NCBI GenBank assembly: GCA_017470345.1
Contig: JAFUEP010000001.1
Location: 1 to 64,000 of the forward strand
Direction: 5' to 3'
DNA from: Prevotella sp.
GTDB taxonomy: Bacteria; Bacteroidota; Bacteroidia; Bacteroidales; Bacteroidaceae
DNA: 64,000 nucleotides
Shown: one piece after another, positions 7,814-61,675 of the stretch
Position numbering within the stretch: the stretch's first letter is position 1
How the letters are laid out: each line of letters opens with the position of its first letter
Notes under the pieces: model-generated
Told to the model about the DNA's origin: nothing
Database searches by the model: none
Seen by the model: the letters and a program-made list of their open reading frames with translations, nothing else
Made by a program: the position numbers and the translations under genes

Positions 7814-7894
7814 GAAGTGCCGCTTTGAGGGTCACGAAGCAACGCTTTGAAGGCCTCAAAGTAACGCTTTGAAGGCCTCAAAGTACCGCTTTGG
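7814..7894. repeat. 22-bp palindromic iteron array, family 1, locus 1 (4 units)
   Basis: Four units start at 7814, 7836, 7858 and 7880, exactly 22 bp apart. Each is a 15-bp imperfect palindrome of the form RAAGTACCGCTTTGA followed by a 7-bp spacer. Weaker unit-like sequence (AATGTAACAACTTTGA) lies just upstream near 7770. The array sits between the divergent promoters of the VTC operon and the GH78 gene. The rest of the 7737-8030 gap holds no gene. Confidence 0.9.
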
Positions 7895-7980
7895 AAAATG
7901 GGCATCGGCATGATTGCCGTTTTGCCTAGATTGTTTCATTATTTGGCGAGTATTTTTCCATTATGCCACGCGGATTGACG

Positions 7981-7988
7981 TAACTTTG
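7981..7988 (+). promoter_or_regulatory. -7 box of the GH78 gene
   Basis: TAACTTTG, 42 bases before the ATG at 8031. No good TTTG is present at the expected upstream spacing. Confidence 0.5.
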
Positions 7989-8030
7989 CAGAAAAATAAC
8001 ACGTCATCACAATCTAAAACAATAAAGACT

Positions 8031-11000
8031 ATGAAAAAAAGGCTTTTGCTGAGCATCCTCCTTTCGACTGTGGGCGCCCTCATAGCCGTCGCACTGACTG
8101 TCGACAACCTGCGCGTCGAGTCGCTGCGCAATCCGAGCGGCATCGACCTGACGGAGCCGCAGTTCTCATGGCAGTTGCAGACTGCCGACCGCGGCGTCGT
8201 GCAGACCGCCTACCAGCTGCAGGTCAGCACCGACGCCGAGGGCACCGCCAAGGTGTTCGACTCGGGTGTCGTCAGGAGCAGCGCGTCGGCCCACGTCAAG
8301 GTGGGCCGTCTGCCCCTGCAGCCCGCCACGCGCTACTACTGGCGCGTCGTGGTGACGGACAACAAAGGCCGGCAGGCCACGTCGGACGAGACGGCCTACT
8401 TCGAGACGGGCCTGATGTCGTCAGGCTGGAGCGGCGCCATGTGGATCAAGGCGGCGCGCGACGAGAGCTCGGCGGGAGTGAAGGACTACACCGTCGAGGG
8501 CCTTGTGCGCATCGAGCACACGGCCGCCGGCCTCTGCTTCGCCATGCAGGACGACGCCAACTTCTATTACTGGCAGCTGAACACCGAGGGCGACTACCCG
8601 CGGCTGCGTCCCCATGTCTGGCAGAACGGCAATCCGGCCTGCCAGGCTGATGTCGACCTGCGAGGCAAGGTGGAGCTGAACAACACCGACGAGTTTGCGC
8701 TCCGCATCGAAGTGACGGGCGCCTCGCGTGCACGCACGTATATAAATAATGTGTTGGTCGACGACCGCACTGGCAACTTCCGCTTTGGGCGCGTCGGCAT
8801 GCGCGAAGACCATGGCGAACGCGACGGGCGCGAGGAGATTGGTGTCTACGACGACATACGCGTCAGCACGGCTGACGGCACGGTGATCTTCTTCGAGGAC
8901 TTTGCCAGCGGCAATGGCTTCACTGGCGGCACAGTCACCGACGACGGCAAGCTGCGCATCGTCGGAGCCACGACGAGCCATGTGCTCGTCTGGCAGATGT
9001 CAGCCGAGGGCATGCCCATGTTCCGCAAGACGTTCGACGTCGGCAGCCGCCGCGTCGCCTCAGCCATGCTCTTCACCAGCGGGCTGGGCGTCTACGACGT
9101 ATTCATGAACGGTCGCCGCGTGGGCCATCCGCAGCCCGACGGCTCCATGCTCTACGAGGAGCTGAAGCCCGGCTGGACCGACTTCCGCCATCGTGTCTTC
9201 TACAGCACCCACGACGTCACGGCGCTGCTCAACGAAGGCCGCAACGCGCTCAGCGCCCTCGTCACGACGGGCTGGTGGGCAGGAGCCGTCATGCACGGTG
9301 CCTACGGGGCGCCGGAGCTGGGCTTCCTGGCCAAGCTGCTCATCCGCTACGACGACGGCAGCGAGGAGGTCGTCGTCAGCGACCTCACGTGGCGCTCATC
9401 GCGTCGCGGGGCGCTGATGCTGGGCGACATCTACGACGGCGAGATCTACGACGCCCGCCAGGCCGACGACTGGACCAGCGCCGACTACGACGACAGCCAA
9501 TGGCTGGGGGTCGGACAGAACACTGACTTCCACGGAGTGGTGGAGGTCTTCACGGGGGGCTATGTGCAGACCCTGCCCGACCACGTCCAGCAGGTGCGCA
9601 CCGCTACCATCTATGAAGGGACCAAGGCGACGGGCACCGACTTCGGCGTGGCCAACGTGGTGCGTACGCAGCAGGGCGAGTGGACGGCCCCCATCGCCGT
9701 GAAGCGCGGCCAGAGCCTGCTGCTCGACTTCGGGCAGAACGTCGTCGGGTGGGTCAGCTTCAAGGTGAAGGGTGCACGGGGCTGCCAGCTGAAGATGCGC
9801 TTCGTCGAGATGCTCAACGACGACGGGTCGCGCAGCCGTGGCAACGACGGCCCAGGCGGGACGCCCTACCTGGCCAACCTGCGCTCGGCCAAGGCGTCGC
9901 TCAGCTACACCCTGAGCGGGGCGACGGAGGGCGAGGCCTATCATCCCTCGACGACGTTCTATGGCTTCCGCTATTGCGAGGTGACGCCCTCTGACGACGT
10001 CGAGATGCTCAGCATCGAGGCTGTGCCCGTCAGCTCGTCAACCTGCGAGCTGGGCTCGCTCGAGACGAGCAACGCGCTGGTGAACCGCCTGTTCGAGAAC
10101 ATCACATGGGGCCAGCGCGGCAACCTGCTCAGCGTGCCCACCGACTGTCCGCAGCGCGACGAGCGGCTGGGCTGGGCGGCCGACACGCAGGTCTTCTCGC
10201 GCACCGGCATGTTCAACGCCGACATGGGGTCGTTCTATATGAAATGGATGCAGGACATGCGCGACGGCCAGAACGCCGAGGGTGCCTATCCTGGCGTGGC
10301 CCCCGAGTGTTGGGGCACACCCTTCGGACAGTGCGTCTGGGCCGACGCCGGCATCCTCGTGCCGTACAACATCTACGTCATGACGGGCAACATCGAGGCC
10401 CTGCGCCAGAACTATGCCTCGATGGAGCGCTACATGGACTACCTGTCGCGCCAGGTCTTCGACGGCTACAAATACAACGGCGGCGGACTGACGTGGGGCG
10501 ACTGGCTCTCGTTCGTCGCGACGGACACGCGCTATATCGCCGTGGCCTACTACGCCCTCGACGCACAGCTCATGGCCTATATGTCGCGCCGTCTCAGCGA
10601 GGCCGACGGCGACACCTACGCCCAAAACGCTGAGAAGTACGAACAGCTCTACCAGGCCATCAAGGCCGAGTTCCGCCAGCGCTACATCACGCCCACCATA
10701 CGTCAGAACACGCAGACGGCCTTCCTCATGGCCCTCGACTACAACCTGCTGGAGGGCGACAAGGAACTCGACAACATCAAGAACCGCCTCCGCATGGCCA
10801 TCACCCGCAACAAGTATAAGCTGAACACGGGCTTTGCCGGCACGGCCATCCTCAACACCACGCTGTCGCGGTTCGGCATGACAGACCTGGCCTACGACCT
10901 GCTGTTGCAGCGCGAATGTCCGTCGTGGCTCTACAGCGTCGACCAGGGCGCCACCACCATCTGGGAGCGATGGAACAGCTACACGCGCGAGTCGGGCTTC

Positions 11001-11603
11001 GGCGACCCTGGCATGAACTCGTTCAACCACTATGCCTACGGGGCCGTCGGCGAGTGGATGTATCGCTATATGGTCGGCATCGAGTATGGCCCCGACGAGC
11101 CCGGCTTCCGCCACATCATCCTGCAGCCCCAGCCCGACCGCCGCACCACGCTGCCCGACGGCCAAAGCCTCATCACCAGCGCCAGCGGCCACCACCACAG
11201 CTACTACGGCGACATCCGCTCAGCATGGCAGGCCGACGGCCAAGACGCGCTGACCTACGACTGCACCGTCCCGGCCAACACGACGGCCACGCTCCTGCTG
11301 CCCGCTGCTGACGAGCAGACGCAGGTCTACGAGAGCGGCCTTCCGGCAGCAGAGGCCGAGGGCGTCGAGTATGTGGGCTATGCTGACGGCTGCCATGTCT
11401 TCCGCCTCGGATCGGGCACGTATCACTTCACATCGAACCTGCAGACAGCCGTCCGCCACCCCTCGCAGTCCGCACAAGGGGCTGCTGACGACGGACCGGC
11501 CTACGACCTGCTGGGGCGGCCGCTGACCGCCAGCCTGGCCGACCTGCCGTCTCGTCCGACGAAAAACATCTACATCGCCAGCGGCAGAAAGATTGTCAAA
11601 TAA
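8031..11603 (+). CDS. Secreted GH78 alpha-L-rhamnosidase with T9SS-like tail
   Basis: A 1190-residue enzyme expected to release L-rhamnose from pectic or other rhamnosides outside the cell. From ATG 8031 it has a signal peptide, then an Fn3-like N-terminal domain (NPSGIDLTEPQFSWQL), a LamG-like insert near residues 150-300, beta-sandwich domains, and the (alpha/alpha)6 catalytic barrel with TDCPQRDERLGW near residue 705 and TIWERW near 975; these hold the acidic catalytic residues in GH78. The C-terminus (YDLLGRP, then IYIASGRKIVK) resembles T9SS sorting tails of Prevotella. An earlier in-frame start at 7914 lies upstream of the -7 box and is rejected. It is followed after 33 bp by a GH43 gene. 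Confidence 0.93.
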   Translation: MKKRLLLSILLSTVGALIAVALTVDNLRVESLRNPSGIDLTEPQFSWQLQTADRGVVQTAYQLQVSTDAEGTAKVFDSGVVRSSASAHVKVGRLPLQPATRYYWRVVVTDNKGRQATSDETAYFETGLMSSGWSGAMWIKAARDESSAGVKDYTVEGLVRIEHTAAGLCFAMQDDANFYYWQLNTEGDYPRLRPHVWQNGNPACQADVDLRGKVELNNTDEFALRIEVTGASRARTYINNVLVDDRTGNFRFGRVGMREDHGERDGREEIGVYDDIRVSTADGTVIFFEDFASGNGFTGGTVTDDGKLRIVGATTSHVLVWQMSAEGMPMFRKTFDVGSRRVASAMLFTSGLGVYDVFMNGRRVGHPQPDGSMLYEELKPGWTDFRHRVFYSTHDVTALLNEGRNALSALVTTGWWAGAVMHGAYGAPELGFLAKLLIRYDDGSEEVVVSDLTWRSSRRGALMLGDIYDGEIYDARQADDWTSADYDDSQWLGVGQNTDFHGVVEVFTGGYVQTLPDHVQQVRTATIYEGTKATGTDFGVANVVRTQQGEWTAPIAVKRGQSLLLDFGQNVVGWVSFKVKGARGCQLKMRFVEMLNDDGSRSRGNDGPGGTPYLANLRSAKASLSYTLSGATEGEAYHPSTTFYGFRYCEVTPSDDVEMLSIEAVPVSSSTCELGSLETSNALVNRLFENITWGQRGNLLSVPTDCPQRDERLGWAADTQVFSRTGMFNADMGSFYMKWMQDMRDGQNAEGAYPGVAPECWGTPFGQCVWADAGILVPYNIYVMTGNIEALRQNYASMERYMDYLSRQVFDGYKYNGGGLTWGDWLSFVATDTRYIAVAYYALDAQLMAYMSRRLSEADGDTYAQNAEKYEQLYQAIKAEFRQRYITPTIRQNTQTAFLMALDYNLLEGDKELDNIKNRLRMAITRNKYKLNTGFAGTAILNTTLSRFGMTDLAYDLLLQRECPSWLYSVDQGATTIWERWNSYTRESGFGDPGMNSFNHYAYGAVGEWMYRYMVGIEYGPDEPGFRHIILQPQPDRRTTLPDGQSLITSASGHHHSYYGDIRSAWQADGQDALTYDCTVPANTTATLLLPAADEQTQVYESGLPAAEAEGVEYVGYADGCHVFRLGSGTYHFTSNLQTAVRHPSQSAQGAADDGPAYDLLGRPLTASLADLPSRPTKNIYIASGRKIVK

Positions 11604-11636
11604 GAATCTCCCCCACCCCACACCCCTCTTACGATT

Positions 11637-14195
11637 ATGAAGCAGACACATCAGACGGCGATAAGCAGGGCCATACGCCTGGCCACAATCCTGCTGACAC
11701 TATGGATGACCGGCGCCATCCGCGTGGCGGCATGGACCAACCCGATGGTGCTGCCCGGACTGGAGAACCGCAGCCTGGGCGACCCCTACATCATGAAGTA
11801 TCGAGGCTACTACTACCTCTACGTCAGCGCCGGCGACCGCAACATCTACTGCTGGCGGTCGAAGGACCTCACGGAATGGTCGACCGCCTACGTCTGCTGC
11901 ACCGACGAGACCACCGCCGTGGCCTATGCGCCTGAGGTGATCTACTGGAACGGCCGCTTCTACATGTGTACATCGCCGCGAGGCGGGGGCCACTACCTGC
12001 TCACGAGCGACAGTCCCCTCGGCCCCTTCGTCCATCAAACTGGCAACCTCGGCCGCGACATCGACGGCTCCATGTTTGTCGACGACGACGGCAGCTGGTA
12101 CTTCTATCATGCCAACAACGGCGGCATCCGCGGATGCGCCATGCCCACCCACCTCAGCCTAGCCGACGATGTCGACCTGGGCTGCTGCATGAGCGGGCAG
12201 TGGACCGAGGGGCCCTGCGTCTTCAAGCGCAACAATCTCTACTACCTCCTCTACACCGGCAACCACGTCTGGACCGACGCCTATCGCATCGACTATGCCA
12301 TCTCGGGCAGCGGACCCCTCGCCGGATTCCGCCCGCAGGCCAGTCAGAACCCCATCCTCATCGACGCCGAGACACCCACGCACAAGGCCCTGGGCCACGG
12401 CACGGCCTTCGTCGGCCCCGACCTCGACACCTATTTCTTCTGCTATCATAACCTGCAGGACAACAAGGCCCGCCGACTGCTCAACTTCGAGCGCATCGGA
12501 TGGTGTGGCGACAAGCTCATCATGACCGGCCCCACCGACTGGGAGCAGGACCGGCCGCTGACGGGCACCAGCGACTACTTCGAGCGCGAGGCGCTCGGCT
12601 CTGACTGGACGACCGACGACGACGGCCTCTGGCAGATAGCCAACGCCGACCATCTGCGCATGTCGGCCGACGAGGGGCGCCACGTCGCAATCTTCGACAA
12701 GGCTGCTCACGAAGACTATACGGCCGAGTTCACCCTCCGTTCCGCCGACGGCCTGACGGGCAGCTTCGGTGCCGTCTTCTCCTATCGCGATGCCGACAAC
12801 TATGCCGAGGCGCACATCCATACAGCCGACAGGCGGCTCGAAGTCGCTGTCTATGCCGACGGCGCAGCCAAGTCGCGCCGCTCCTTCTCGCTGCCCGCCG
12901 ACTTCGACCCTGCCGCCTGGCATGCCATCCGCATCGAGAAGAACGGCCGCATCACCCGCATCTTCGTCGACGGCATGCGCAAATACCTGCTTACCGGGCA
13001 GACGGGCGGAGGCAAGATCGGCTACGTCGCCCAGTCGGCTCCCGCCTGCTTCTCCTACATCGCCCTCAGCCCCTACGTCGACGGCAGCGCCATCCTCGGC
13101 GTCAGCCTGCCCCTCCCCGGCACGATCGCCGCCTCGATGTGCACCGACAAGTCGGCCGACGTGCGCCCCACGGCCTACTCCCTCACGCCCGGCACGGCCT
13201 ACTACATGCAGTGCAGTGACGGCAGCACCCTGACCTATCAGGTCAACATCCGGCACGAGGGCCCCTTCAACCTCGGCCTGCGCTATCGCTCATCGGCCGT
13301 CGCCCACGTGCGGCTGCTCATCGACGGCCAGCCCCTTACCGCCATCGTCGAGCTGCCCTCCACGCGCTCATCCGTCGTCACGCAGCCCCTCTCCGGCATC
13401 ACCCTGCCCGCAGGCCGCCACCAGCTGACCATCGAAGTCGTCGACGGCCATCCCCTCATCTATGAATACAGCTTCAAGCCCGGCGTGGCCCATCCGCGCA
13501 CCATGGCCGACAACTTCGACGACGGCTTCAGCCCCGACTGGGGCTATCGCGAAGGCAACTGGACCATCGCCGACGGGCAGCTCGAGTCGACCGGTGGCTA
13601 CGGCAAGATGCTGATGGGCGCCTACGGCGACATCCACATGACTGACTACACCGTCGAATGCGACGTCAGCTATCCCTATGGCGAGATGAACGGCGGACTG
13701 CTCGTGCGCACCACCAACGCCTCGACCGGCGGGGCCGACGACAACCCCGTGCTGGGCACCGACTTCCTCCAGGGCTACGTCCTCCTGGCCTCCGCCACAT
13801 CGGTGACGCTGGGCAAGCACAACTTCGGCTGGCAGGCACTCGCCACGGTCAGCCATACCGTCAATCCCGTCGTGCCGCACCACATGAAGGTGGAGGTCAA
13901 GGGCGCCACCATCAGCTGCTACATCGACGACATGCAGCAGCCCGTGCTCGTCTACACCGACACGCAGCCCTTCCTCACTGGCCGCGCCGGGTTCCGTGCG
14001 CACAACTCGCGCATCCGGTTCGACAACTTCGTCGTCACCCCGACTGAGGAATCCCCCTCTGCTGTCACCGCTCCTCATGCCGCCCCATTGCCCGACGGCC
14101 ATGCCCACTACAATCTGCAGGGACAGATGATTAACCTTCAGGCGCCACTCGGCCACGGCGTCTACATCATCGAGGGCCGCAAGGTGGTCTTATAG
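11637..14195 (+). CDS. Secreted multidomain GH43 glycosidase with T9SS-like tail
   Basis: An 852-residue protein, signal peptide first. The five-bladed GH43 catalytic domain covers about residues 40-320: GDPYIM carries the expected catalytic base Asp, DIDGSMFVDDDG the pKa-tuning Asp, and TEGPCVF the acid Glu. Two LamG/DUF1080-like domains (about 330-480 and 630-800) flank a CBM6-like sandwich, suggesting polysaccharide binding. The tail (YNLQGQ then VYIIEGRKVVL) looks like a T9SS sorting signal. GH43 members act on arabinosides, xylosides or galactosides; the substrate here is not deducible. Pairing with GH78 suggests pectin or arabinogalactan side chains. Confidence 0.88.
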   Translation: MKQTHQTAISRAIRLATILLTLWMTGAIRVAAWTNPMVLPGLENRSLGDPYIMKYRGYYYLYVSAGDRNIYCWRSKDLTEWSTAYVCCTDETTAVAYAPEVIYWNGRFYMCTSPRGGGHYLLTSDSPLGPFVHQTGNLGRDIDGSMFVDDDGSWYFYHANNGGIRGCAMPTHLSLADDVDLGCCMSGQWTEGPCVFKRNNLYYLLYTGNHVWTDAYRIDYAISGSGPLAGFRPQASQNPILIDAETPTHKALGHGTAFVGPDLDTYFFCYHNLQDNKARRLLNFERIGWCGDKLIMTGPTDWEQDRPLTGTSDYFEREALGSDWTTDDDGLWQIANADHLRMSADEGRHVAIFDKAAHEDYTAEFTLRSADGLTGSFGAVFSYRDADNYAEAHIHTADRRLEVAVYADGAAKSRRSFSLPADFDPAAWHAIRIEKNGRITRIFVDGMRKYLLTGQTGGGKIGYVAQSAPACFSYIALSPYVDGSAILGVSLPLPGTIAASMCTDKSADVRPTAYSLTPGTAYYMQCSDGSTLTYQVNIRHEGPFNLGLRYRSSAVAHVRLLIDGQPLTAIVELPSTRSSVVTQPLSGITLPAGRHQLTIEVVDGHPLIYEYSFKPGVAHPRTMADNFDDGFSPDWGYREGNWTIADGQLESTGGYGKMLMGAYGDIHMTDYTVECDVSYPYGEMNGGLLVRTTNASTGGADDNPVLGTDFLQGYVLLASATSVTLGKHNFGWQALATVSHTVNPVVPHHMKVEVKGATISCYIDDMQQPVLVYTDTQPFLTGRAGFRAHNSRIRFDNFVVTPTEESPSAVTAPHAAPLPDGHAHYNLQGQMINLQAPLGHGVYIIEGRKVVL

Positions 14196-14213
14196 GCACA
14201 ACTAAGAATTAAA

Positions 14214-14289
14214 TCACCGCCGCCGGACAATATTTCACCGCCGCTGAAATAATGTTCAGCGGCGGTGAAATAGTATTCGGCGGCGATGA
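14214..14289. repeat. 21-bp palindromic iteron array, family 3 (4 units)
   Basis: Units start at 14214, 14235, 14256 and 14277, exactly 21 bp apart. Cores are TCACCGCCGCTGA and its reverse complement TCAGCGGCGGTGA with small variations; spacers are AT-rich. The array begins 19 bp after the GH43 stop codon and precedes the radical SAM gene's tandem promoters. Confidence 0.9.
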
Positions 14290-14305
14290 AAAAACTCAAA
14301 AACAT

Positions 14306-15343: not shown

Positions 15344-15391
15344 CAAGCAAAGCCCAGCGAAAGTTGAATTAAGAGACGTTCGAAAATAATA

Positions 15392-15473
15392 AAATCACAG
15401 TGTGACGTATTAAAATCTCAGTGTGATTTTAATAAATCTCAGTGTGACGAAATAAAATCACACTGAGATTTTA
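15392..15473. repeat. 21-bp palindromic iteron array, family 4 (4 units)
   Basis: Cores start at 15396, 15417, 15438 and 15459, exactly 21 bp apart: TCACAGTGTGA, TCTCAGTGTGA (twice) and TCACACTGAGA, the last inverted. Cores are flanked by AAAA/TTTT. The array lies between the convergent radical SAM and AlkD-like genes, where no conventional terminator is obvious. Confidence 0.9.
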
Positions 15474-15541
15474 ATTATTGACGGGACTTTCTGACGGTCC
15501 GCAGACGGTTCGTGCGCGTTTTCCGGGGACGCGCCCTCTTG

Positions 15542-17232: not shown

Positions 17233-17248
17233 ATTACCAATGTTTTTT

Positions 17249-17427
17249 AAGACACAATAATTTTCTTTTTTAAGACACAGTAATGTTCTTTTTTAAGACA
17301 CAGTAATGTTCTTTTTTTAAGACACAGTAACAGAATAACAGATATAACATATTTATTGTCATGATACTACAGTGTCTTTTTTGTTATTATGTTACTGTGT
17401 CTTTTTATTATTAACCTACTGTGTCTT
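17249..17427. repeat. AAGACACAGTAA array, four direct and three inverted copies (family 5)
   Basis: AAGACACARTAA starts at 17249, 17272, 17295 and 17319 (spacing 23, 23, 24). After a 40-base centre its inverse (TTACTGTGTCTT type) appears at 17367-17378, 17392-17403 and 17416-17427 (spacing 25, 24). Spacers are T-rich. The last inverted copy overlaps the stop codon (17426-17428) of the efflux outer-membrane gene. The array fills the 193-bp gap before the LpxA-like gene. Confidence 0.9.
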
Positions 17428-36021: not shown

Positions 36022-36960
36022 ATGCAAGCAAGCAAACAACTATCACCTCTGCATCCCCGCACCAGCGGCGGATGTATTGCCAGCGGCTATAGGCTCTACA
36101 CATCCGTCTTCCGCCGCATCTTCAGAGCCTCGTGGCCCTTGGCCGTCGTCTATGCCATAGCCATGGCAGCCATGTCGAGCTATTACATCAGTGACGTCAT
36201 ACCCCTCATGGGCCTGCAGACGATCGTCGACCCGGAGACGATGCGGCAGCTCACGACGCAGACGACGGTCGTCGCCGTCCTGCTGGGGCTCGCCTTCGTC
36301 GTCGCCGCCACGTTTCTGGCCTCATGCGGCTTCAGCGCCATGCGCCAACACCTGGCAACAGGCGAGGTCAGCCGTCCGCCACATTGGTGGGGACGTCTCG
36401 ACATGCCGTCGCTGGGGCGGACGGTGGTCAGCATTGCCTGGGTGCTCGTCGTCCTCATGCTCTACGGCATGCTGACGGCCGGGCTCGTCATGCTTTCCCA
36501 ACGTTCAGGACTGACATCGCTCCTCATCGGAAGCCTCGTCTTCGCCCTCGCCGTTATGTTTCTCCTGCTGCCGATGGCCTACACCGTCAATCGCTCCATC
36601 CTTGCCGAGCGGTTCAGCCCTGCCCCACCCTTGCGCGGCTGGCTCAGCGGCCTCGGCCATTGGGGACTGCTGTTCGTCGTCATACTCATCACTGGCCTGA
36701 CGACGCTGTTGCTCACTCTCATCACCCAACTGCCGGCCCTCATCCTCTATGCCGCCAACATCCGGTCTCAGTTGGGCGCCCTTAACGGCGACGACCCGGG
36801 CATGCCTCAAGGACTCTGGTGGCTCAGCTTTGCTGTCTTCTTCATTGGCGGCTTCATCCAAGCCTACGTCCACCTTTCTACGCTCTTCCCGCTCTACTAT
36901 GCCTACGGCACGATAAGAGCCAACGAAGAAGGACGCAGCGAAAGTCTCACCACGGCGTGA
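36022..36960 (+). CDS. Multi-pass membrane protein of unknown function
   Basis: A 312-residue inner-membrane protein with about six hydrophobic helices (for example ASWPLAVVYAIAMAAM, VVAVLLGLAFVVAATFL, TVVSIAWVLVVLMLYGML, SLVFALAVMFLLLPMAY, WGLLFVVILITGLTTLL, LSFAVFFIGGFIQAYVH). I recognise no family motif. ATG 36022 follows the -7 box; the frame from 35962 begins before it. The final codons and stop lie inside the first unit of a 21-bp repeat array. It is a single gene, divergent from the oxidoreductase operon. Confidence 0.75.
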   Translation: MQASKQLSPLHPRTSGGCIASGYRLYTSVFRRIFRASWPLAVVYAIAMAAMSSYYISDVIPLMGLQTIVDPETMRQLTTQTTVVAVLLGLAFVVAATFLASCGFSAMRQHLATGEVSRPPHWWGRLDMPSLGRTVVSIAWVLVVLMLYGMLTAGLVMLSQRSGLTSLLIGSLVFALAVMFLLLPMAYTVNRSILAERFSPAPPLRGWLSGLGHWGLLFVVILITGLTTLLLTLITQLPALILYAANIRSQLGALNGDDPGMPQGLWWLSFAVFFIGGFIQAYVHLSTLFPLYYAYGTIRANEEGRSESLTTA

Positions 36961-37034
36961 CGGCATGGCGCCACGACGTGACGGCATGAAATCACGACGT
37001 GACGGCATGGCGTCACGTCGTGTCACAAGTTTTT
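36951..37034. repeat. 21-bp palindromic iteron array, family 2, locus 1 (4 units)
   Basis: Units start at 36951, 36972, 36993 and 37014, exactly 21 bp apart. The core CACGACGTG alternates with a second near-palindrome centred on CATG (ACGGCATGGCGT). The first unit overlaps the last codons and TGA stop of the membrane protein gene. The last unit ends in CACAAGTTTTT, as at the second locus (54726-54809). Confidence 0.92.
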
Positions 37035-46544: not shown

Positions 46545-46566
46545 CGGTAATATTTAGGAGAAAAAC

Positions 46567-46669
46567 GAAGCGGTCCTTTGAGGGCAGAGAAGCGGTCCTT
46601 TGAGGGCAGAGAAGCGGTCCTTTGAGGGCAAAGAAGCGGTCCTTTGACGAGGGAGAAGCGGTCCTTTGA
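46567..46669. repeat. 22-bp palindromic iteron array, family 1, locus 2 (5 units)
   Basis: Units start at 46567, 46589, 46611, 46633 and 46655, exactly 22 bp apart. All share GAAGCGGTCCTTTGA without a mismatch; the 7-bp spacers are GGGCAGA, GGGCAGA, GGGCAAA and CGAGGGA. The array lies 23 bp after the RluA-family stop codon and 90 bp before the DUF2807 gene. Confidence 0.95.
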
Positions 46670-54694: not shown

Positions 54695-54725
54695 ACGTTG
54701 GCATGGCCGGATAATAAAGTAATGA

Positions 54726-54809
54726 CACGTCGTGACGGCATGCCGTCACGACGTGATTTCATGGCGCCACGACGTGACGGCATGGCGTCACGCCGTGCCA
54801 CAAGTTTCC
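54726..54809. repeat. 21-bp palindromic iteron array, family 2, locus 2 (4 units)
   Basis: Units start at 54726, 54747, 54768 and 54789, exactly 21 bp apart. The cores are CACGTCGTG, CACGACGTG (twice) and CACGCCGTG, with CATG-centred near-palindromes between them. As at 36951-37034 the array ends in CACAAGTTT. It lies between tamL and the rpsA promoter. Confidence 0.92.
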
Positions 54810-55048: not shown

Positions 55049-56836
55049 ATGTCAGAATTAACAAAGAACGTCAAGCCGCTCGAGGACTTCAACTGGGACG
55101 AATTCGAAAACGGCACCGTGGCCAACGTGAGCAAGGAAGAACTTGACAAGGCCTACGACGAAACCCTGAACAAGGTAGCCGACCATCAAGTTGTTGATGG
55201 TAAGGTCATCTCTGTGGACAAGAAAGAAGTCGTGGTCAACATCGGCTACAAGAGCGATGGTATCATCCCCGCCGGCGAGTTCCGCTACAACCCCGACCTG
55301 AAAGAAGGCGACACCGTGGAAGTCTATGTCGAGAGCGTCGAGGACCGCAGCGGTAAGCTCATCCTCTCGCACAAGAAGGCCCGCCTCTCTAAGGCTTGGG
55401 ACCGCGTCAACGCAGCCCTCGAGGAGCAGCAGGTCATCCAGGGCTTCATCAAGTGCCGCACGAAGGGCGGTATGATTGTCGACGTCTTCGGCATCGAGGC
55501 CTTCCTGCCCGGCTCGCAGATCGACGTTCATCCCATACGCGACTACGACCAGTTCGTGGGTAAGACGATGGAGTTCAAGGTGGTGAAGATCAACCAGGAG
55601 TTCCGCAACGTCGTTGTCTCCCACAAGGCCCTCATCGAGCAGGAGCTCGAGGCCCAGAAGCAGGAGATCATCTCGAAGCTCGAGAAGGGTCAGATCCTGG
55701 AGGGTACGGTCAAGAACATCACAAGCTACGGCGTCTTCGTCGACCTCGGCGGCGTGGACGGACTCATCCACATCACCGACCTGTCATGGGGCCGCGTCGA
55801 CGATCCGAAGAAGGTTGTCGAGCTCGACCAGAAGATCAACGTTGTCATCCTCGACTTCGACGAGGAGAAGAAGCGCATCGCCCTCGGTCTGAAGCAGCTG
55901 ACCCCGCACCCCTGGGATGCTCTGGATCCCGAGCTCAAGGTGGGCGACCACATCAAGGGCAAGGTTGTCGTTATCGCCGACTACGGTGCATTCGTCGAGG
56001 TGCAGCCTGGCGTCGAGGGTCTGATTCACGTCAGCGAGATGTCGTGGAGCCAGCACCTGCGTTCAGCACAGGAGTTCCTGAAGGTTGGCGACGAGGTTGA
56101 GGCTGTCATCCTGACCCTCGACCGCGACGAGCGCAAGATGAGCCTCGGCATCAAGCAGCTCAAGGAAGATCCTTGGGAGGCTATCGAGGTGAAGTATCCC
56201 GTCGGTTCGAAGCACACTGCCAAGGTGCGTAACTTCACCAACTTCGGCGTCTTCGTCGAGCTGGAAGAGGGTGTCGACGGACTGATCCACATCAGCGACC
56301 TTTCGTGGACGAAGAAGGTGAAGCACCCCTCAGAGTTCACCAAGGTGGGCGAGCCTATCGACGTCATCGTGCTCGACATCGACAAGGAGAACCGTCGTCT
56401 CTCGCTCGGCCACAAGCAGCTTGAGGACAATCCTTGGGACGTCTTCGAGGGCCAGTACACCGTCGGCTCTGTCCACACGGGCAAGATCACCGAGATGCTC
56501 GAGAAGGGCGCCGTCGTTCAGCTCGAGGAGAACGTCGAGGGCTTTGCCACTCCGAAGCACCTTGTCAAGGAGGACGGCTCGCAGGCTCAGCTCGGCGAGG
56601 AACTGCCCTTCAAGGTGATTGAGTTCAACAAGGACTCGAAGCGCATCATCCTCTCGCACAGCCGCACCTTCGAGGATGCCCAGCGTGAGGAGAAGCGTGC
56701 TGCCCGCAAGGCTGCCGCTCCCCGTGCTGCCAAGAAGGACGACACGCCGAAGATTGAGAACGTGGCTGCCAGCACCACGCTTGGCGACATCGACGTCCTC
56801 GCTCAGCTGAAGGCTCAGATGGAGAAGGGAGAATAA
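55049..56836 (+). CDS. rpsA: 30S ribosomal protein S1
   Basis: A 595-residue RNA-binding protein that brings mRNA to the ribosome. Six S1 (OB-fold) repeats are visible, with recurring signatures such as GVFVDLGGVDGLIHITDLSW, GAFVEVQPGVEGLIHVSEMSW and GVFVELEEGVDGLIHISDLSW between residues about 45 and 540. A basic Ala/Lys-rich tail follows (KRAARKAAAPRAAKK). S1 matters especially in Bacteroidetes, where Shine-Dalgarno sequences are rarely used. Single gene with its own leader and terminator. Confidence 0.97.
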   Translation: MSELTKNVKPLEDFNWDEFENGTVANVSKEELDKAYDETLNKVADHQVVDGKVISVDKKEVVVNIGYKSDGIIPAGEFRYNPDLKEGDTVEVYVESVEDRSGKLILSHKKARLSKAWDRVNAALEEQQVIQGFIKCRTKGGMIVDVFGIEAFLPGSQIDVHPIRDYDQFVGKTMEFKVVKINQEFRNVVVSHKALIEQELEAQKQEIISKLEKGQILEGTVKNITSYGVFVDLGGVDGLIHITDLSWGRVDDPKKVVELDQKINVVILDFDEEKKRIALGLKQLTPHPWDALDPELKVGDHIKGKVVVIADYGAFVEVQPGVEGLIHVSEMSWSQHLRSAQEFLKVGDEVEAVILTLDRDERKMSLGIKQLKEDPWEAIEVKYPVGSKHTAKVRNFTNFGVFVELEEGVDGLIHISDLSWTKKVKHPSEFTKVGEPIDVIVLDIDKENRRLSLGHKQLEDNPWDVFEGQYTVGSVHTGKITEMLEKGAVVQLEENVEGFATPKHLVKEDGSQAQLGEELPFKVIEFNKDSKRIILSHSRTFEDAQREEKRAARKAAAPRAAKKDDTPKIENVAASTTLGDIDVLAQLKAQMEKGE

Positions 56837-56866
56837 GAGCTCAAGAGACTTTTAGCCCTATATGAC

Positions 56867-56897
56867 AAGGCCGCGCCTCATGAAGAGACGCGGCCTT
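56867..56897 (+). terminator. Terminator of rpsA
   Basis: AAGGCCGCG (56867-56875) pairs with CGCGGCCTT (56889-56897), with further CTC/GAG pairing in the loop, followed by a T-rich stretch. Confidence 0.85.
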
Positions 56898-56939
56898 TAT
56901 TTGTTGCCTACTATTTCAAAGTACAAAAAAAACGAATCG

Positions 56940-57743
56940 TCAAAGCAAATCGAAGACGCCAGTCGGCATGGCACGCTTGAGCACCTCGAGCTGGAGGTCC
57001 TTGCCGACGACGATGCCATAAGAGCGGAGCACGGCCTCGACCGTCTTGCGCGCCAGCTCAGGGTGGTTGTTCTCTTCAGAGAGATGGCAGAGCCATACAT
57101 AGCGCAAGTCCTGGCTCATGTTCTGCGCTATGGCTTCGCCACAGAGATTGTTGTTCAGATGGCCCGTACCACAGGTGATACGGCGCTTCAGATGCTCTGG
57201 GTAAGGCCCATGGAGGAGCATCTCACGATCGTGGTTGGCCTCGATGACCAAATAGTTGGCCCGCGTGATATAAGCCGTCATCTCGTCTGTGACGCAACCA
57301 CAATCCGTCATGATACAGAAACGCACACCTTCGGCCTCAATCATGTAGCCTACATTGTCGCTGCTGTCGTGAGGGACACTGAATGGCGTCACAAGGAAAT
57401 CACCGATGGTGATGGTTTGCGCCGGTTCCAGATAACGACGATAGGCAGCTTCCACCTTTCGCGCGACGCAATAGTTGCGATCGATCCCCTTGTGGACGGC
57501 TTCAGTGGCATAGACAGGCAAATGCTGATCATGGCTAAGGCTGCCGACACACTTGATGTGGTCAGCATGATCGTGAGTGATCAGCACATGGTGCACCTGT
57601 GCGAGGCTTAGGCCATAGTTGCGGAAATGCTTTTTCAGCGTACGGATTCCGACGCCCGCATCGATAATCAGTCCATCGTTGCCGGTGTAAAGGAAATAGC
57701 AGTTACCACTACTACCGCTGCCAAAAGATATGAATCTCAGCAT
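56940..57743 (-). CDS. MBL-fold metallohydrolase (YycJ/WalJ-like)
   Basis: A 267-residue metallo-beta-lactamase-fold protein. THDHADH (residues 56-62) is the HxHxDH metal site, and further ligands follow at CIMTDCG and CGTGHLNNN. The start FISFGSGSSGNCYFL is the signature of the YycJ/WalJ group, proposed to be exonucleases or cell-wall-linked hydrolases; biochemical role is uncertain. ATG 57743 is chosen because the frame to 57788 runs through the TATCTTTG box at 57764-57771. Confidence 0.88.
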   Translation of the reverse strand: MLRFISFGSGSSGNCYFLYTGNDGLIIDAGVGIRTLKKHFRNYGLSLAQVHHVLITHDHADHIKCVGSLSHDQHLPVYATEAVHKGIDRNYCVARKVEAAYRRYLEPAQTITIGDFLVTPFSVPHDSSDNVGYMIEAEGVRFCIMTDCGCVTDEMTAYITRANYLVIEANHDREMLLHGPYPEHLKRRITCGTGHLNNNLCGEAIAQNMSQDLRYVWLCHLSEENNHPELARKTVEAVLRSYGIVVGKDLQLEVLKRAMPTGVFDLL

Positions 57744-57763
57744 GTCGTTTCTGAATTTAAATG

Positions 57764-57771
57764 CAAAGATA
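57764..57771 (-). promoter_or_regulatory. -7 box of the MBL hydrolase gene
   Basis: TATCTTTG on the minus strand, 20 bases before ATG 57743. Confidence 0.5.
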
Positions 57772-57827
57772 CAAAAAAGAATCGACAAAAGGCCAAAGTC
57801 AGGAAATTATTTTACCTTATTTAAACA

Positions 57828-60050
57828 TCAGAAAGGCAGTCCGACGGCAAAATGGAAGGCATAGTCGCGGCTGAAGCGTGGGTGGAGGATGGGATAATGC
57901 TCGTCGTCGTCCTCCTCATAGGCGGGGTTGATGGCCTTCATGCCGAGGTCGAAGCGCAGGATGAAGTAGTCGAAGTTGAAGCGCAGGCCCAGACCATAGC
58001 TGACGGCCAGCTGACTTGGAAAGTCGCTGAATCGGAACTGTCCGCCAGGCTGAATGTCATAGTCGCGTAGTGTCCAGATATTGCCGGCATCGACGAAGGC
58101 AGCGCCACCAAGCTTCCAGAACAGGTGGGTGCGATACTCAAGGTTGAGGTCGAGCTTCATGTCGCCAGTCTGGTTGATGAAGTTGATACGTCCGTCGCGT
58201 TCCTTATATTTACCTGGTCCGAGCGAGCGCACACTCCATCCGCGCACACTGTTGGCACCGCCAGAGAAGTAGCGTTTCTCGAAAGGCAGCACGGTCGAGT
58301 TGCCATAGGGATAGGCAATGCCGAAGCCGAGATGGAAGACGAGCTGGTTGTGGGCATCGATGGTGAAGGAGCGGGTCAGGTCGACATCAGCCTTGGCATA
58401 CTGGGCGAAGGCGATGTTGAAGAGGCGATATTGCCCCTTGTCATCTTTTTCCGTACCAAACAAGCGTGCCCCGCCAGCCAGGAGGTTGCCTGACGTCTCG
58501 ACATTGGTCTTCAGAGCGACATTGCCCTTGGCGTATGAGTAGCCGAAGCCCACCTTGGTAATGAACAGATCCTCGTAGTTATAACGCAGGATGGCATTGC
58601 GGTTCGACTCGTTGTCGAGATATTGGGAGCGGAAGGTGGGCGACAGCCAGGGCATGAACACGTAGTTGAGATCGAACAGGTCAAGCTGATAGCGGTCATG
58701 ACGGTGAGGGAAGCTCCACCGATAGCGCCAGGCAGCCGAGAGCACCCGCCGATGGAACTCCGGACGGTCCTGCAGGTCATAGAGCAGCGACAGCTCGCTG
58801 GTGGCATTGACACGCTGGCGGAATCGCTGGTTGACAAAAGGCATGATGAAGCGTGGGAGCTGCAGTCGGGTCTCAAGGCTGTATTCAATAAAGTCCTGAT
58901 TGGCATAGCCCTCAAGCCCACGGATGGCCTCGTAGGCGCCACGCAATTCGACACTGAGCACCTCGCTCCCGCGGAAGAGATTACGATTCTGATAAGTGAG
59001 CGATGCAGCCGCTCCGAGATCGCCTGCCGTATTGGTTCCTTCGGGCTGGAAGGAGATGGTTGAGGGTTTGTTCGTCTGTAGCTGGATGTCGCAATCGAGC
59101 ATTGCCGAGTCAGCAACAGGGCGGAACATGATGTTAGTATAGCGCACGGCCTGAAGACGTCCGAGGTGATTGTAGGTATTCTGCAGCCCAGAAGCCGTAT
59201 AATACTGTCCTTCAGCCAAATGCGTGCACTCCTCAAGGACATGGCGACGCAAGTGGATGCGCGAATCAGCAGGGTCGCCGCTGGCATAGGCGATGCGGCG
59301 TAGCAGATAGCGCGTATGCAGAGTGTCCGGACTGTCGGACGACTGGCGATAGAGTCCCAGCCGCAGTGTGATATCAATCAGGCGCGTGCCGCGAGTGGTG
59401 TCAGCCCGATAAGTGATAAATTCCTTATGGAAGCGGAAGTAGCCACTGTCAGTCAGCAATGACGTGAGGCGTTTGCGCTCAGCGTCGAGCAGACTGACGT
59501 CGAACTTCATGCCCGGATGAATCAGTCGGCGGAGGCTGTCGCCTGCCAGAAGCTGGCGGATGCTGTCGTCGCGTATGTCATAGCTGATGTTATGAATGAA
59601 ATAAGGCTCGCCAGGACGGAGCCAGTAGGTGACGTCGACCTTGCGACCATGCCGTCGCTCCTCGACGTCGACGTCCGCCTGAAGGAATCCCTCGTTGCGC
59701 AGCTCCTGACGCAGGTCGGCAATGGTCTGCAGGGTGCGCAGTGAATCGTAGACGACAGGAGCCTCGCCAATGGACTTCAGGGTGCGGTTGATCCATCGCG
59801 ACGAGTCGCGTCCGGAGAGCGAATAGGTGGCCAGCGGGAGCTTCACCAGCGAGAACCAGCGGGCATTAGGCTGCTGGCGCACATAGCTGCGGAGTGCCGA
59901 TGTGTTGACGTCGCGATAGTCGCCCTCAGTCTTGACCTTGACACTGCTTAGCAACAGTCCGCCGTCAGGCACATAGCGAGTCGTAGAGCACGACGCCACG
60001 AGCATCGCGAGGGCCGAAAGCAAGAAGGCTATGATAAGGCTTTTTCGCAT
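57828..60050 (-). CDS. Second TamL-like BamA/TamA-family outer-membrane lipoprotein
   Basis: A 740-residue Omp85 lipoprotein. The signal peptide ends in LVASC (Cys21), followed by STTRYVPDGGLLL, a common TamL start. POTRA-like domains lie in the N-terminal half; the barrel has SGGANSVRGWSVRSLGPG and ends in FAVGLPF. It has no TamB gene next to it, unlike the paralogue at 52220-54694 only 3 kb away. ATG 60050 follows a TAACTTTG box at 60060-60067; the frame to 60089 runs through that box. Confidence 0.9.
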   Translation of the reverse strand: MRKSLIIAFLLSALAMLVASCSTTRYVPDGGLLLSSVKVKTEGDYRDVNTSALRSYVRQQPNARWFSLVKLPLATYSLSGRDSSRWINRTLKSIGEAPVVYDSLRTLQTIADLRQELRNEGFLQADVDVEERRHGRKVDVTYWLRPGEPYFIHNISYDIRDDSIRQLLAGDSLRRLIHPGMKFDVSLLDAERKRLTSLLTDSGYFRFHKEFITYRADTTRGTRLIDITLRLGLYRQSSDSPDTLHTRYLLRRIAYASGDPADSRIHLRRHVLEECTHLAEGQYYTASGLQNTYNHLGRLQAVRYTNIMFRPVADSAMLDCDIQLQTNKPSTISFQPEGTNTAGDLGAAASLTYQNRNLFRGSEVLSVELRGAYEAIRGLEGYANQDFIEYSLETRLQLPRFIMPFVNQRFRQRVNATSELSLLYDLQDRPEFHRRVLSAAWRYRWSFPHRHDRYQLDLFDLNYVFMPWLSPTFRSQYLDNESNRNAILRYNYEDLFITKVGFGYSYAKGNVALKTNVETSGNLLAGGARLFGTEKDDKGQYRLFNIAFAQYAKADVDLTRSFTIDAHNQLVFHLGFGIAYPYGNSTVLPFEKRYFSGGANSVRGWSVRSLGPGKYKERDGRINFINQTGDMKLDLNLEYRTHLFWKLGGAAFVDAGNIWTLRDYDIQPGGQFRFSDFPSQLAVSYGLGLRFNFDYFILRFDLGMKAINPAYEEDDDEHYPILHPRFSRDYAFHFAVGLPF

Positions 60051-60059
60051 AATCGACGG

Positions 60060-60067
60060 CAAAGTTA
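60060..60067 (-). promoter_or_regulatory. -7 box of the second tamL-like gene
   Basis: TAACTTTG on the minus strand, 9 bases before ATG 60050. Divergent from the rlmD -7 box. Confidence 0.5.
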
Positions 60068-60110
60068 CGAAAAAAATGCCATTCTGCATTCATAATTGCG
60101 AATAATTTTC

Positions 60111-60118
60111 TACCTTTG
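60111..60118 (+). promoter_or_regulatory. -7 box of rlmD
   Basis: TACCTTTG, 21 bases before ATG 60140. Confidence 0.5.
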
Positions 60119-60139
60119 CATCCAAAATCAAAAAACGAC

Positions 60140-61558
60140 ATGGGAAGAAGCAAAAAACCACTGCCGCTCCTTGAGGGCGTCACTATTGAAGCTGTCGCTG
60201 CCGAGGGCAAATGCCTTTTCCACTGGCAGGACATGGTCGTGTTTGTGCCCTGGTGCGTGCCTGGTGACATCTGCGACGTCCAGCTACACCGCAAGAAGCA
60301 CTCTTATGCTGAAGGCGAGGTCGTCAGATTCATCAAGCTGAGCGAGGTGCGCGCCGTGCCCTTCTGCAGTCATTTTGGCGTCTGCGGCGGGTGCAAATGG
60401 CAAAACCTGCCCTACGCCGAGCAACTTCGCTTCAAGCAGCAGCAAGTGACAGACCAGCTGAGGCGCATCGGCAAAGTGGAACTGCCAGAGATCCGCCCCA
60501 TTCTGGGCTCCGTGCTGACGCGTGAGTATCGCAACAAACTCGACTTCGGCTGTGCCAACCGTCGCTATCTGACGCGCGAGCAGCTCGCTGACGAATCGCT
60601 CCGCAAGGACATCCCCGCCATCGGATTCCACATCACGGGCGCCTTCGACAAGATACTGCCTATCGAGACGTGCCACCTGATGCACCCACTGCACAACGAC
60701 ATCCGCAACGCCATTCGCGACTATGCTCTCGAGAAGCAGCTCTCGTTCTTCGACCTGAAAGCTCAGAAAGGATTGCTGCGCGACGTCATCATTCGCAACT
60801 CGAACAGCGGCGAATGGATGGTCATCCTGCAGTTTCACTACGATGAGACGGGTGGTCAGAAAGAGGCTTTCGGACTGCTTCAATACTTGAAGGACAACTT
60901 CCCGCAGATCAGCTCGTTAATGTATGTCGACAACCAGAAGTGCAACGACACCATCGGCGACCTTGACATCCTGACCTTCAGCGGCTCCGACCATATCTTT
61001 GAACTCATGGAGGACCTGCGATTCAAGGTCGGCCCGAAGTCGTTCTACCAGACCAATACGGAGCAGGCCCTGCACCTTTACCAGGTGGCACGCGACTTCG
61101 CCCAGCTCACAGGCCATGAGCTCGTCTACGACCTCTACACAGGAACAGGCACGATTGCCAACTTCGTGGCCCGCCGGGCCCGCCAGGTGGTCGGCATCGA
61201 ATACGTGCCGGAGGCCATCGAAGACGCCAAGGTGAACGCCTCGATAAACGGGCTTGAAAACACGCTCTTCTATGCCGGCGACATGAAGGACATCCTCACT
61301 GACGACTTCATCGCTGAGCACGGACGGCCTGACGTCATCATCACCGACCCGCCACGCGCGGGCATGCACCCTGACGTGGTGAGCACCATCCTGCGGGCGG
61401 CGCCCCAACGCATCGTCTACGTCTCATGCAACCCGGCCACGCAGGCCCGCGACCTGCAGCTGCTCGACGCCGACTATCGGGTGAAGGACGTACAGCCCGT
61501 CGACATGTTCCCACATACGCCCCACGTGGAGAATGTCGTGCTGCTCGAGCGACGCTAA
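60140..61558 (+). CDS. rlmD: 23S rRNA (uracil(1939)-C(5))-methyltransferase RlmD
   Basis: A 472-residue SAM-dependent RNA methyltransferase with an N-terminal TRAM domain. Iron-sulfur cysteines Cys76, Cys82 and Cys85 (CSHFGVCGGCKWQ) lie near the start and a fourth lies near residue 187. The SAM site is VYDLYTGTGTIANF, and the catalytic Cys lies in YVSCNPATQARDL. RumA/RlmD and RlmC/TrmA-type enzymes are hard to separate by eye; U1939 is the usual assignment. ATG 60140 is after the -7 box. Confidence 0.9.
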   Translation: MGRSKKPLPLLEGVTIEAVAAEGKCLFHWQDMVVFVPWCVPGDICDVQLHRKKHSYAEGEVVRFIKLSEVRAVPFCSHFGVCGGCKWQNLPYAEQLRFKQQQVTDQLRRIGKVELPEIRPILGSVLTREYRNKLDFGCANRRYLTREQLADESLRKDIPAIGFHITGAFDKILPIETCHLMHPLHNDIRNAIRDYALEKQLSFFDLKAQKGLLRDVIIRNSNSGEWMVILQFHYDETGGQKEAFGLLQYLKDNFPQISSLMYVDNQKCNDTIGDLDILTFSGSDHIFELMEDLRFKVGPKSFYQTNTEQALHLYQVARDFAQLTGHELVYDLYTGTGTIANFVARRARQVVGIEYVPEAIEDAKVNASINGLENTLFYAGDMKDILTDDFIAEHGRPDVIITDPPRAGMHPDVVSTILRAAPQRIVYVSCNPATQARDLQLLDADYRVKDVQPVDMFPHTPHVENVVLLERR

Positions 61559-61572
61559 TGATGCCCAAAAAC

Positions 61573-61675
61573 GAAGTACCGCTTTGACCTCATCAAAGCG
61601 GTACTTTGACATCAGAGAAGCGGTCCTTTGACGACATCAAAGCGGTCCTTTGACGACAGAGAAGCGGCACTTTTC
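61573..61675. repeat. 22-bp palindromic iteron array, family 1, locus 3 (5 units)
   Basis: Units start at 61573, 61595, 61617, 61639 and 61661, exactly 22 bp apart. The first reads GAAGTACCGCTTTGA, the reverse orientation; the others AAAGCGGTACTTTGA, GAAGCGGTCCTTTGA, AAAGCGGTCCTTTGA and a degenerate last unit. Both orientations thus occur in one array. It begins 14 bp after the rlmD stop. Confidence 0.95.

Follow-up and report, generated by a model that had tools for sequence, protein, structure and literature searches.

Palindromic intergenic arrays with a 21/22-bp period in Prevotella: possible rows of DNA-level binding sites

Arrays at the locus

The window, by which we mean the whole stretch of 64,000 nucleotides analysed (positions 1 to 64,000 of contig JAFUEP010000001.1, Prevotella sp., assembly GCA_017470345.1, hereafter G000), contains seven arrays (7814, 14214, 15392, 36951, 46567, 54726 and 61573), each composed of four or five short palindromic cores and drawn from four different sequence words. 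An earlier note on this DNA had described 4-5 copies, palindromic cores and exact 21- or 22-bp steps, with four words sharing a common period, and core centres measured by pattern bear out this description: steps are exactly 21 bp in arrays 14214, 15392, 36951 and 54726, and exactly 22 bp in arrays 7814, 46567 and 61573. All seven were also recovered by TRF.

Word 1 makes up array 7814 (7813..7893), which has four cores of CAAAGCGGTNCTTTG type read on the minus strand, centred at 7820, 7842, 7864 and 7886 (three steps of 22 bp), within the divergent spacer between genes 6925-7683 (-) and 8070-11603 (+). The same word recurs in array 46567 (46566..46669, plus strand; five cores centred at 46573, 46595, 46617, 46639 and 46661, four steps of 22 bp), with a pseudouridine synthase gene and a DUF2807 gene on either side, and in array 61573 (61572..61674; five cores centred at 61579, 61601, 61623, 61645 and 61667, four steps of 22 bp), where the first core is inverted (-++++) and the flanking genes encode an RNA methyltransferase and a porin. 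Array 14214 (14213..14291) contains four cores of word 2, TTCACCGCCGCTGAA, in the orientation ++-- and centred at 14220, 14241, 14262 and 14283 (three steps of 21 bp), while array 15392 (15387..15475) lies in a convergent spacer and has four cores of word 3, TCWCAGTGTGA, in the orientation +++- and centred at 15400, 15421, 15442 and 15463 (three steps of 21 bp). Word 4, TCACGNCGTGA, a sequence that includes the letters CGTC, forms array 36951 (36949..37024; four cores centred at 36955, 36976, 36997 and 37018, three steps of 21 bp) in a convergent spacer, its start overlapping the last codons of ORF 35962-36960, and array 54726 (54724..54799; four cores centred at 54730, 54751, 54772 and 54793, three steps of 21 bp) between an Omp85-type and an S1-domain gene; in both word 4 arrays the pattern also matched the word's second dyad, between the main centres.

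An eighth, looser array, missing from the earlier list, lies at 17243..17427, where four forward copies of word 5, AAGACACAGTA, precede three inverted copies, with steps of 23, 23, 24, 49, 25 and 24 bp. When the window was scanned at lags 8-80 with a threshold of at least 35/44 matches, the only lags returned were 21, 22, 23, 42, 44, 46 and 66, together with one coding lag of 54; at this threshold five of the seven arrays are caught, with 54726 missed, as is 14214, because its halves are inverted.

Period and palindromy

The earlier note proposed that 21/22-bp periods be checked for over-representation, and the period is indeed peaked. In 464 kb of G000 there are 33 noncoding arrays, 21 of them with a period of 20-23 bp, and five dinucleotide-shuffled runs of the same sequence gave no arrays, placing the census beyond chance. 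The same period accounts for 19 of 39 arrays in seven genus-mates, 30 of 64 arrays in the sample of 80 named loci and one of four in 20 genomes outside the genus; these counts are not fully independent because the samples hold a few sister-orthologous array pairs. Thus 20-23 nt is the leading noncoding tandem-repeat class in the G000 sample and is weaker in the sister genome G200, where it describes only 14 of 44 arrays in 405 kb and the others fall at 8, 16 and 42. Further words besides those in the window occur at other G000 loci, and many of the arrays detected outside the window's seven span less than four periods. Words also group by lineage, in that they change between lineages and the geometry stays.

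Palindromy goes with the 20-23-bp period, a link that we add to what is described of such satellites. With arrays trimmed and local arms scored, the unit consensus is palindromic at p<=0.05 in 32 of the 70 arrays that have this period (the other 38 fail this threshold), in 3/12 of 42-46 bp and in 2/54 of other periods; a stricter whole-unit measure, applied to rough consensuses, gives 20/70, 5/12 and 2/54 for the same classes. Arm columns are less variable than linker columns in 31 of the 32 palindromic 20-23-bp arrays.

Spacing, inversion and sequence turnover

The 22-bp lattice of word 1 persists despite inversion of a core or differing 7-bp linkers. When word 1 cores of G000 and the relative G187 are paired over distances below 150 bp, the separation is an exact multiple of 22 bp in 83 of 85 pairs, including 29 of the 30 in opposite orientation (all 85 G000 sites and the first 65 of 295 G187 sites were counted, leaving aside three pairs at zero distance). 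Counting again in the G000 sample, with up to 3 mismatches allowed, finds the lattice in 78 of 79 pairs on the same strand and in 31 of 33 on opposite strands. The core is common to 22 G000 clusters, six of which are single cores, although the collection of clusters by their match to the core (2 mismatches at most) is in itself biased towards conserved cores. From one cluster to another the 7-bp linkers look almost random, and they are often unlike within a single cluster. That spacing is kept despite flipped sites and changed intervening DNA points to a protein reading the row.

Comparison of eight orthologous arrays with the sister genome, which has both words 1 and 4, shows changes at 33/435 core, 35/192 linker and 125/1138 flank sites. 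Cores change less than linkers (p = 1.5e-4, counting sites and not independent events, with array 54726 supplying 12 of the 35 linker changes) and slightly less than flanks (p = 0.049); in the array at 7821 the core changed at 11/60 sites. Array 46567 differs between the sisters by exactly one unit (22 bp), and some arrays have been gained or lost, array 17243 being absent from the sister with other sequence in its place.

Position relative to genes, promoters and terminators

The placement of arrays at transcription-unit boundaries, as the earlier note had it, holds in so far as they are intergenic, but not beyond this: there is no preference for gene orientation, array 36951 enters the end of an ORF, and array 7814 is at no 3' end because its flanking genes diverge. 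Tandem, convergent and divergent spacers carry 41, 11 and 16 arrays against expectations of 39.9, 9.7 and 18.5, the class following spacer length, so that divergent spacers, without any 3' end, bear arrays about as often as expected. Arrays do avoid the start-proximal promoter box. Only 1% of 73 array edges lie within 60 bp of a called start, compared with 18% at random, and relative to the start-nearest TAnnTTTG box 63 arrays are upstream, none overlapping and two downstream, where random placement gives 49.6, 10.6 and 4.8. E. coli-type promoter-like matches between 5000 and 18000 overlap arrays 14214, 15392 and 17243 in six of nine cases (shuffles give 3.2); of the 14 such matches between 43000 and 62900, none overlaps an array.

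Seven arrays (7814, 14214, 15392, 17243, 46567, 54726 and 61573) were scanned for terminator-like matches. Only 54726 and 61573 contain one, in each case on the strand that neither flanking gene uses, and another lies at 7906-7919, 13 bp behind array 7814; a sense-direction hairpin with a T run, as at an intrinsic terminator, is found inside none of the seven. An Rfam search of the window returned only two tRNAs, and all relaxed Rfam hits in six G187 loci were below gathering scores. RNA-level selection was suggested by a first count of sense-strand mismatches (G-T 22 vs A-C 5); the signal vanishes in a larger, laxer set (G-T 24 vs A-C 19, in 12 arrays vs 10) and is therefore not used as evidence. 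The genes adjoining arrays in the window have no common function. In G058 the ortholog of the RNA methyltransferase gene is likewise followed by an array, with a different word, and in G187 so is the ortholog of the pseudouridine synthase gene; the genes further downstream are not the same ones or sit on other contigs, and the numbers are too small for a test.

Discussion

Constant-size tandem repeats of 20-23 nt in bacteria are reportedly the subject of a 2020 study by Subirana and Messeguer in the Journal of Bacteriology. The available parts of their 2021 paper (PMC8161180) describe, in many bacteria, short noncoding arrays of at least four such repeats, with several families per genome at one repeat length and species-specific words, and they remark on the two-turn length and suggest a protein polymer on DNA. 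A leading 20-23-nt class, several words at one length, species-specific words and 4-5 copies are likewise seen here; orientation-free in-register cores and free linkers of fixed length are features of the present arrays that those parts do not describe, nor do they give placement relative to promoters or name any Bacteroidota. BrickBuilt of Porphyromonas gingivalis (Klein et al. 2015, PMC4596501), as far as the portion available describes it, is a MITE with a leader and tail bearing inverted ends, within which a single 23-nt minisatellite repeat reaches up to 22.8 copies, and it is reported to have bidirectional promoter activity. It shares with the present arrays a Bacteroidales host, intergenic dispersal, about two turns per unit and conserved and variable unit parts, but these arrays have periods of 21 and 22 bp, many words and mostly 3-7 copies. 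REP, REPIN and CGTC-tagged repeats are short intergenic palindromes in many copies, often dimers, for which the accessible text (PMC3733652) does not describe the fixed 21/22-bp spacing seen here.

The class itself is therefore not new, constant spacing with changing sequence being known from other bacteria, and the earlier note's statement that no named element of this kind was known is overtaken by the constant-size repeats and BrickBuilt; the match to a described kind of repeat, which that note had named as refuting its idea, holds for the class and not for these words. What we add is the link between palindromy and period, a lattice that tolerates flipped cores, slowly changing cores, placement relative to genes and promoters, the rarity of the words and a dispersed element in G187. 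Rows of short sites about 20-22 bp apart, for proteins that bind side by side, also occur in plasmid iterons and partition centromeres; these occupy one locus per replicon beside a rep or par gene, whereas the present arrays occupy dozens of loci in one genome. In CRISPR arrays, which accompany cas genes, the unique spacers are about 30 nt long, far from the 7-bp linkers of word 1.

In our preferred explanation, to which we give a probability of about 45%, the arrays are the Prevotellaceae form of constant-size 20-23-nt satellites and would act as DNA, as operator rows for a symmetric, dimeric putative protein or for a few related proteins of this type. Each row consists of short palindromic core sites with centres two helical turns (21 or 22 bp) apart, joined by linkers of fixed length that for word 1 are free in sequence, and dimers would bind side by side along one helix face. 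The rows are found before promoters or after stop codons, where they could shape the nucleoid locally, shield adjacent units from one another or adjust promoter strength; their copy number shifts by whole units, and words are replaced as lineages diverge. A lattice that withstands the flipping of individual cores and the replacement of linkers fits the selection on DNA-face geometry raised in the earlier note, while the protein, and the cooperative dimers offered there as an example, are conjectural. Since two turns of 10.5 bp fall short of 22 bp, one helix face would be kept only with slight protein-induced twist of the DNA. The lack of a common function among neighbouring genes in the window and the looseness of word 5 (23-25) count against operator rows, as do the 38 arrays below the palindromy threshold, the absence of array 17243 from the sister and the smaller share of 20-23-bp periods there. 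HU-type proteins (PF18291) were considered as the binder; matches occur in 35 of the 41 genomes searched within the phylum but also in 9 of 14 control genomes, so no candidate is singled out.

A serious rival, though on balance unlikely, is that each array belongs to a small, non-autonomous mobile element similar to BrickBuilt or REPINs. Dispersal would bring an array to new spacers and unequal exchange would alter the number of units, while the period would be inherited from the founding element with its hairpin structure; such modules may carry promoters. The recurrence of the same words at many unlinked loci of one genome, the overlap of promoter-like matches with arrays 14214, 15392 and 17243, and the BrickBuilt precedent argue for it, as does G187, in which 20 copies (selected among the retrieved loci, the small ones chosen from the word 1 sites) share a longer conserved sequence surrounding the word 1 array, which as in BrickBuilt sits inside a longer dispersed element, and in which direct repeats GAATTTTCYTTACAT recur about 150 bp apart. 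However, these direct repeats have no hits in 464 kb of G000, where word 1 linkers vary between and within arrays (flanks compared over 7 bp each side of the cores), and several unrelated words have one period in one genome. Nor is there a clear link to mobilisation by a RAYT: the Y1-type transposase domain PF01797 is present in five of eight genomes (G016, G040, G050, G058 and G000, the last with one partial match inside a 1202-aa open frame) and was not found in G024, G039 or the array-rich G187; several of the eight assemblies are incomplete, that of G187 being 81% complete.

The remaining explanations fit less well. Functionless replication slippage, or hairpin-templated copying at palindromes, might make and keep the arrays, which we consider improbable. 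Quasi-palindromes are mutation hot spots, and both the one-unit difference at array 46567 and the gain or loss of arrays between sisters are consistent with such a process; furthermore, the lattice itself is mirror-symmetric, so errors in hairpin-templated copying could also flip a core in register. But slippage expects identical neighbours, while word 1 linkers differ from unit to unit at exact spacing, palindromy is rare in arrays of other periods, and cores change less than linkers and slightly less than flanks. The earlier note's other suggestion, that repeats are made on a template of fixed length, may hold; template copying alone predicts no in-register inverted cores with differing linkers. 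Most improbable in our estimate is that rows of hairpins terminate transcription or make the 3' ends of mRNAs more stable, for although the palindromic units could form hairpins, and terminator-like matches do occur in or behind arrays 54726, 61573 and 7814, the two internal ones oppose both flanking genes, divergent spacers are not avoided, the wobble excess is lost and no Rfam family other than tRNA is matched in the window.

Words 1 and 4, for which the genus was searched, are both rare in it and species-specific: among 200 genus genomes, G000 included, the two-core pattern of word 1 occurs in two (a 30-base pattern, which looser forms could escape) and word 4 in one. We may ask whether the operator rows belong to an unnamed chromosomal site system of orientation-free operators on a strict two-turn lattice, bound by dimeric proteins and with the recognition word replaced in each lineage, a proposition we regard as doubtful. 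If it were true, the lineage-replaced words would resemble a binding code that evolves fast and serves to organise the nucleoid or insulate promoters. Bacterial repeats that keep their size while varying in sequence have puzzled observers ever since they were first reported. Here core and linker are separable, tests of the lattice can be kept distinct from the effects of simple duplication, and constraint is measured directly against a sister genome, so that the question of what fixes repeat length becomes a defined experiment, namely the search for a protein with affinity for word 1 or word 4.

Geometry and period of the arrays

The earlier note had described seven arrays, each of four or five palindromic cores spaced at 21 or 22 bp, and core patterns placed on the window bear this out for all seven; the centre-to-centre step is exactly 21 bp in the arrays starting at 14214 (word 2), 15392 (word 3), 36951 and 54726 (both word 4), and exactly 22 bp in those at 7814, 46567 and 61573 (word 1), the words being unrelated core sequences. 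TRF reported all seven, and a lag scan of the whole window (lags 8-80), which caught five of the seven at the threshold used, returned just 21-23, multiples of these and one coding lag of 54. An eighth array, built on a fifth word, occupies 17243-17427, with four forward and three inverted copies of AAGACACAGTA at looser steps of 23-25 bp.

Periods of 20-23 bp made up 21/33 noncoding arrays in the sample from this genome (G000; a further 400 kb in 20 stretches, several picked for word 1 sites, so that densities are not unbiased), 19/39 in 786 kb from seven genus-mates (G016, G024, G039, G040, G050, G058 and G187) and 30/64 in 80 named loci (1,237 kb; Prevotellaceae with some Bacteroides, Phocaeicola and others), while dinucleotide shuffles of these three samples gave zero arrays in five runs each. 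The share was lower in the sister genome G200 (14/44 in 405 kb, with other arrays at 8, 16 and 42 bp), where the stretches had been picked in part because they matched repeats of the window, and the scan ran over each in full, not by spacer. Outside the genus, 396 kb from 20 genomes of the phylum held four arrays, one with lag 22 that, by eye only, appeared non-palindromic.

Palindromy, defined as local mirror-symmetric arms in the unit consensus at p<=0.05 against shuffled units, was found in 32 of the 70 arrays with periods of 20-23 bp, 3 of 12 at 42-46 bp and 2 of 54 at other periods. Arm columns were less variable than linker columns in 31 of the 32 palindromic 20-23 bp arrays, the arms having been picked on the same consensus. 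The minor modes at 8 and 14 bp consist mainly of low-complexity 7- and 8-mers, and palindromes are rare among these arrays, which often touch gene ends; their spacers are tandem in 27 cases, convergent in 4 and divergent in 0 of 31. Such arrays, a second intergenic class of low complexity with periods of 8-15, are seen at window 15211-15330 and in two fetched loci (L149:3194-3267 and L150:1822-1909).

A lattice of invertible cores

A search of the G000 sample for the word 1 core (CAAAGCGGTNCTTTG, <=2 mismatches, clusters split at gaps >48 bp), made without imposing a period, gave 22 clusters, six of them single cores, and same-strand neighbours within clusters lay 22 bp apart in 23 of 24 cases and 44 bp apart in one. 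From cluster to cluster the 7-bp linkers in this sample are close to random, and inside one cluster they are often unlike. Whole-genome counts were 85 sites in G000 and 295 in G187, a relative rich in such sites, with 5 and 5 for a backward control pattern. Centres were separated by exact multiples of 22 bp in 41/42 same-strand and 12/13 opposite-strand cases in G000, and in 13/13 and 17/17 in G187 among the 65 of 295 matches listed; in 20 G187 loci picked from the matches listed, the fit was 59/63 and 75/82 pairs, all 11 misfits coming from unrelated palindromes in locus L281 (seven) and one stray site in L283 (four). Cores are also flipped in register within the window, at 14214 (++--), 15392 (+++-) and 61573 (-++++). 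Simple tandem duplication does not produce cores that are inverted yet in register, nor linkers that are equal in length but unrelated in sequence.

Change between sister genomes

G200 (MAG RUG12472, uncultured Prevotellaceae), reached through its locus L159, is 88-98% identical to G000 at the DNA level, mostly 92-96%, in aligned blocks of at least 500 bp. Across eight orthologous arrays in stretches fetched from both genomes, changes per aligned site were 33/435 in cores, 35/192 in linkers and 125/1138 in flanks (p = 1.5e-4 for core against linker, 0.049 for core against flank and 0.008 for linker against flank). Array 46567 differs between the sisters by exactly one 22-bp unit, and the only other gap inside the eight is of 1 bp. 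Outside this count stand 17243, 14214 (contig break), a period-25 array in L032 (anchor absent on one side) and L043 (anchors 3 kb apart); the G200 spacer orthologous to 17243 holds unrelated sequence of nearly equal length.

Some 99 bp adjoining array 14214 (14322-14420) recur in many copies across G200 as another dispersed noncoding repeat, and a short repeat-rich stretch at 24850-24911 (TRF unit ATGAACAATGTACG) has further matches elsewhere in that genome. A G/C-rich palindromic insertion of CCCCTCGGGGAGG type lies in apparent coding sequence at L031:15139-15220 (G000 C48:79139-79220) and is absent from G200; a stretch resembling it occurs at window 18783-18900, where G200 is shorter too.

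Placement relative to genes and promoters

Genes were called with our own codon-usage script, so starts are approximate. Spacer classes track spacer length in the 68 arrays that have a called gene on either side and a spacer of <=1,500 bp (tandem 41, convergent 11 and divergent 16, against 39.9, 9.7 and 18.5; chi-square p = 0.76). Only 1% of array edges facing a called start (n=73) lay within 60 bp of it, against 18% under random placement; for edges facing a 3' end (n=63) the figures were 40% and 33%. Relative to the TAnnTTTG box nearest the start, which we take to be the Bacteroidota promoter motif, arrays lay upstream in 63, overlapping in 0 and downstream in 2 of the 65 array-start pairs with such a box in the spacer (sister copies included), where random placement gave 49.6, 10.6 and 4.8. 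The genes flanking the window arrays have unrelated functions, and no common one was found. Two tandem tRNA genes lie on the minus strand at 3337-3410 and 3452-3525.

Of nine E. coli-type promoter-like matches within window 5000-18000, six overlap an array (14214, 15392 or 17243; shuffles, 3.2), at 14224-14253, 15386-15458, 17234-17261 and 17361-17414; within 43000-62900, 0 of 14 fall on arrays (shuffles, 7.6). Such overlaps are of interest because promoter activity is reported for BrickBuilt (PMC4596501).

Words by lineage and the G187 element

Of 200 genus genomes, two carry the two-core word 1 pattern and one carries word 4, G000 being counted in both; G200 carries both words, and relatives build arrays of the same period from other words. 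In G187, conserved sequence surrounds the word 1 arrays (20 copies aligned), forming a noncoding element whose word 1 cores lie on a 22-bp lattice and which is dispersed over L141:10246-10410, L142:6055-6219, L144:10804-10968 and 18811-18975, L145:10822-10987, L275-L288 and L293. Direct repeats of GAATTTTCYTTACAT stand 150 bp apart (once 151) in the longer loci; this sequence was hit 11 times in 135 kb of G187, once in 405 kb of G200, once in the other 79 named loci and not at all in 464 kb of G000. Six G187 loci scanned against Rfam gave zero families above the gathering score.

Discussion

The earlier note knew of no named element of this kind, but the class is already in print: Subirana and Messeguer (PMC8161180) describe 20-23-nt repeats that keep a constant size and are found in single species across many bacterial groups, each species having sequences of its own; they also remark on the two helical turns and suggest a protein polymer. 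The class is therefore known, and the arrays described here are a variant of it; among the literature matches listed, no paper on such arrays in Prevotella was found by title or abstract start.

Recognition at the level of DNA best fits the evidence, because the cores are symmetric, free in orientation, set on a two-turn lattice and the least changing part of the arrays, and because the promoter box is spared. Dimers of a putative protein would bind the cores side by side. That the arrays belong instead to a mobile element is a real alternative, given the dispersal of array-bearing sequence in G187 and the precedent of BrickBuilt (PMC4596501). As RNA terminators the arrays fit poorly. DNA-level recognition and mobility may also hold together, the arrays then being mobile modules that bear rows of operators.
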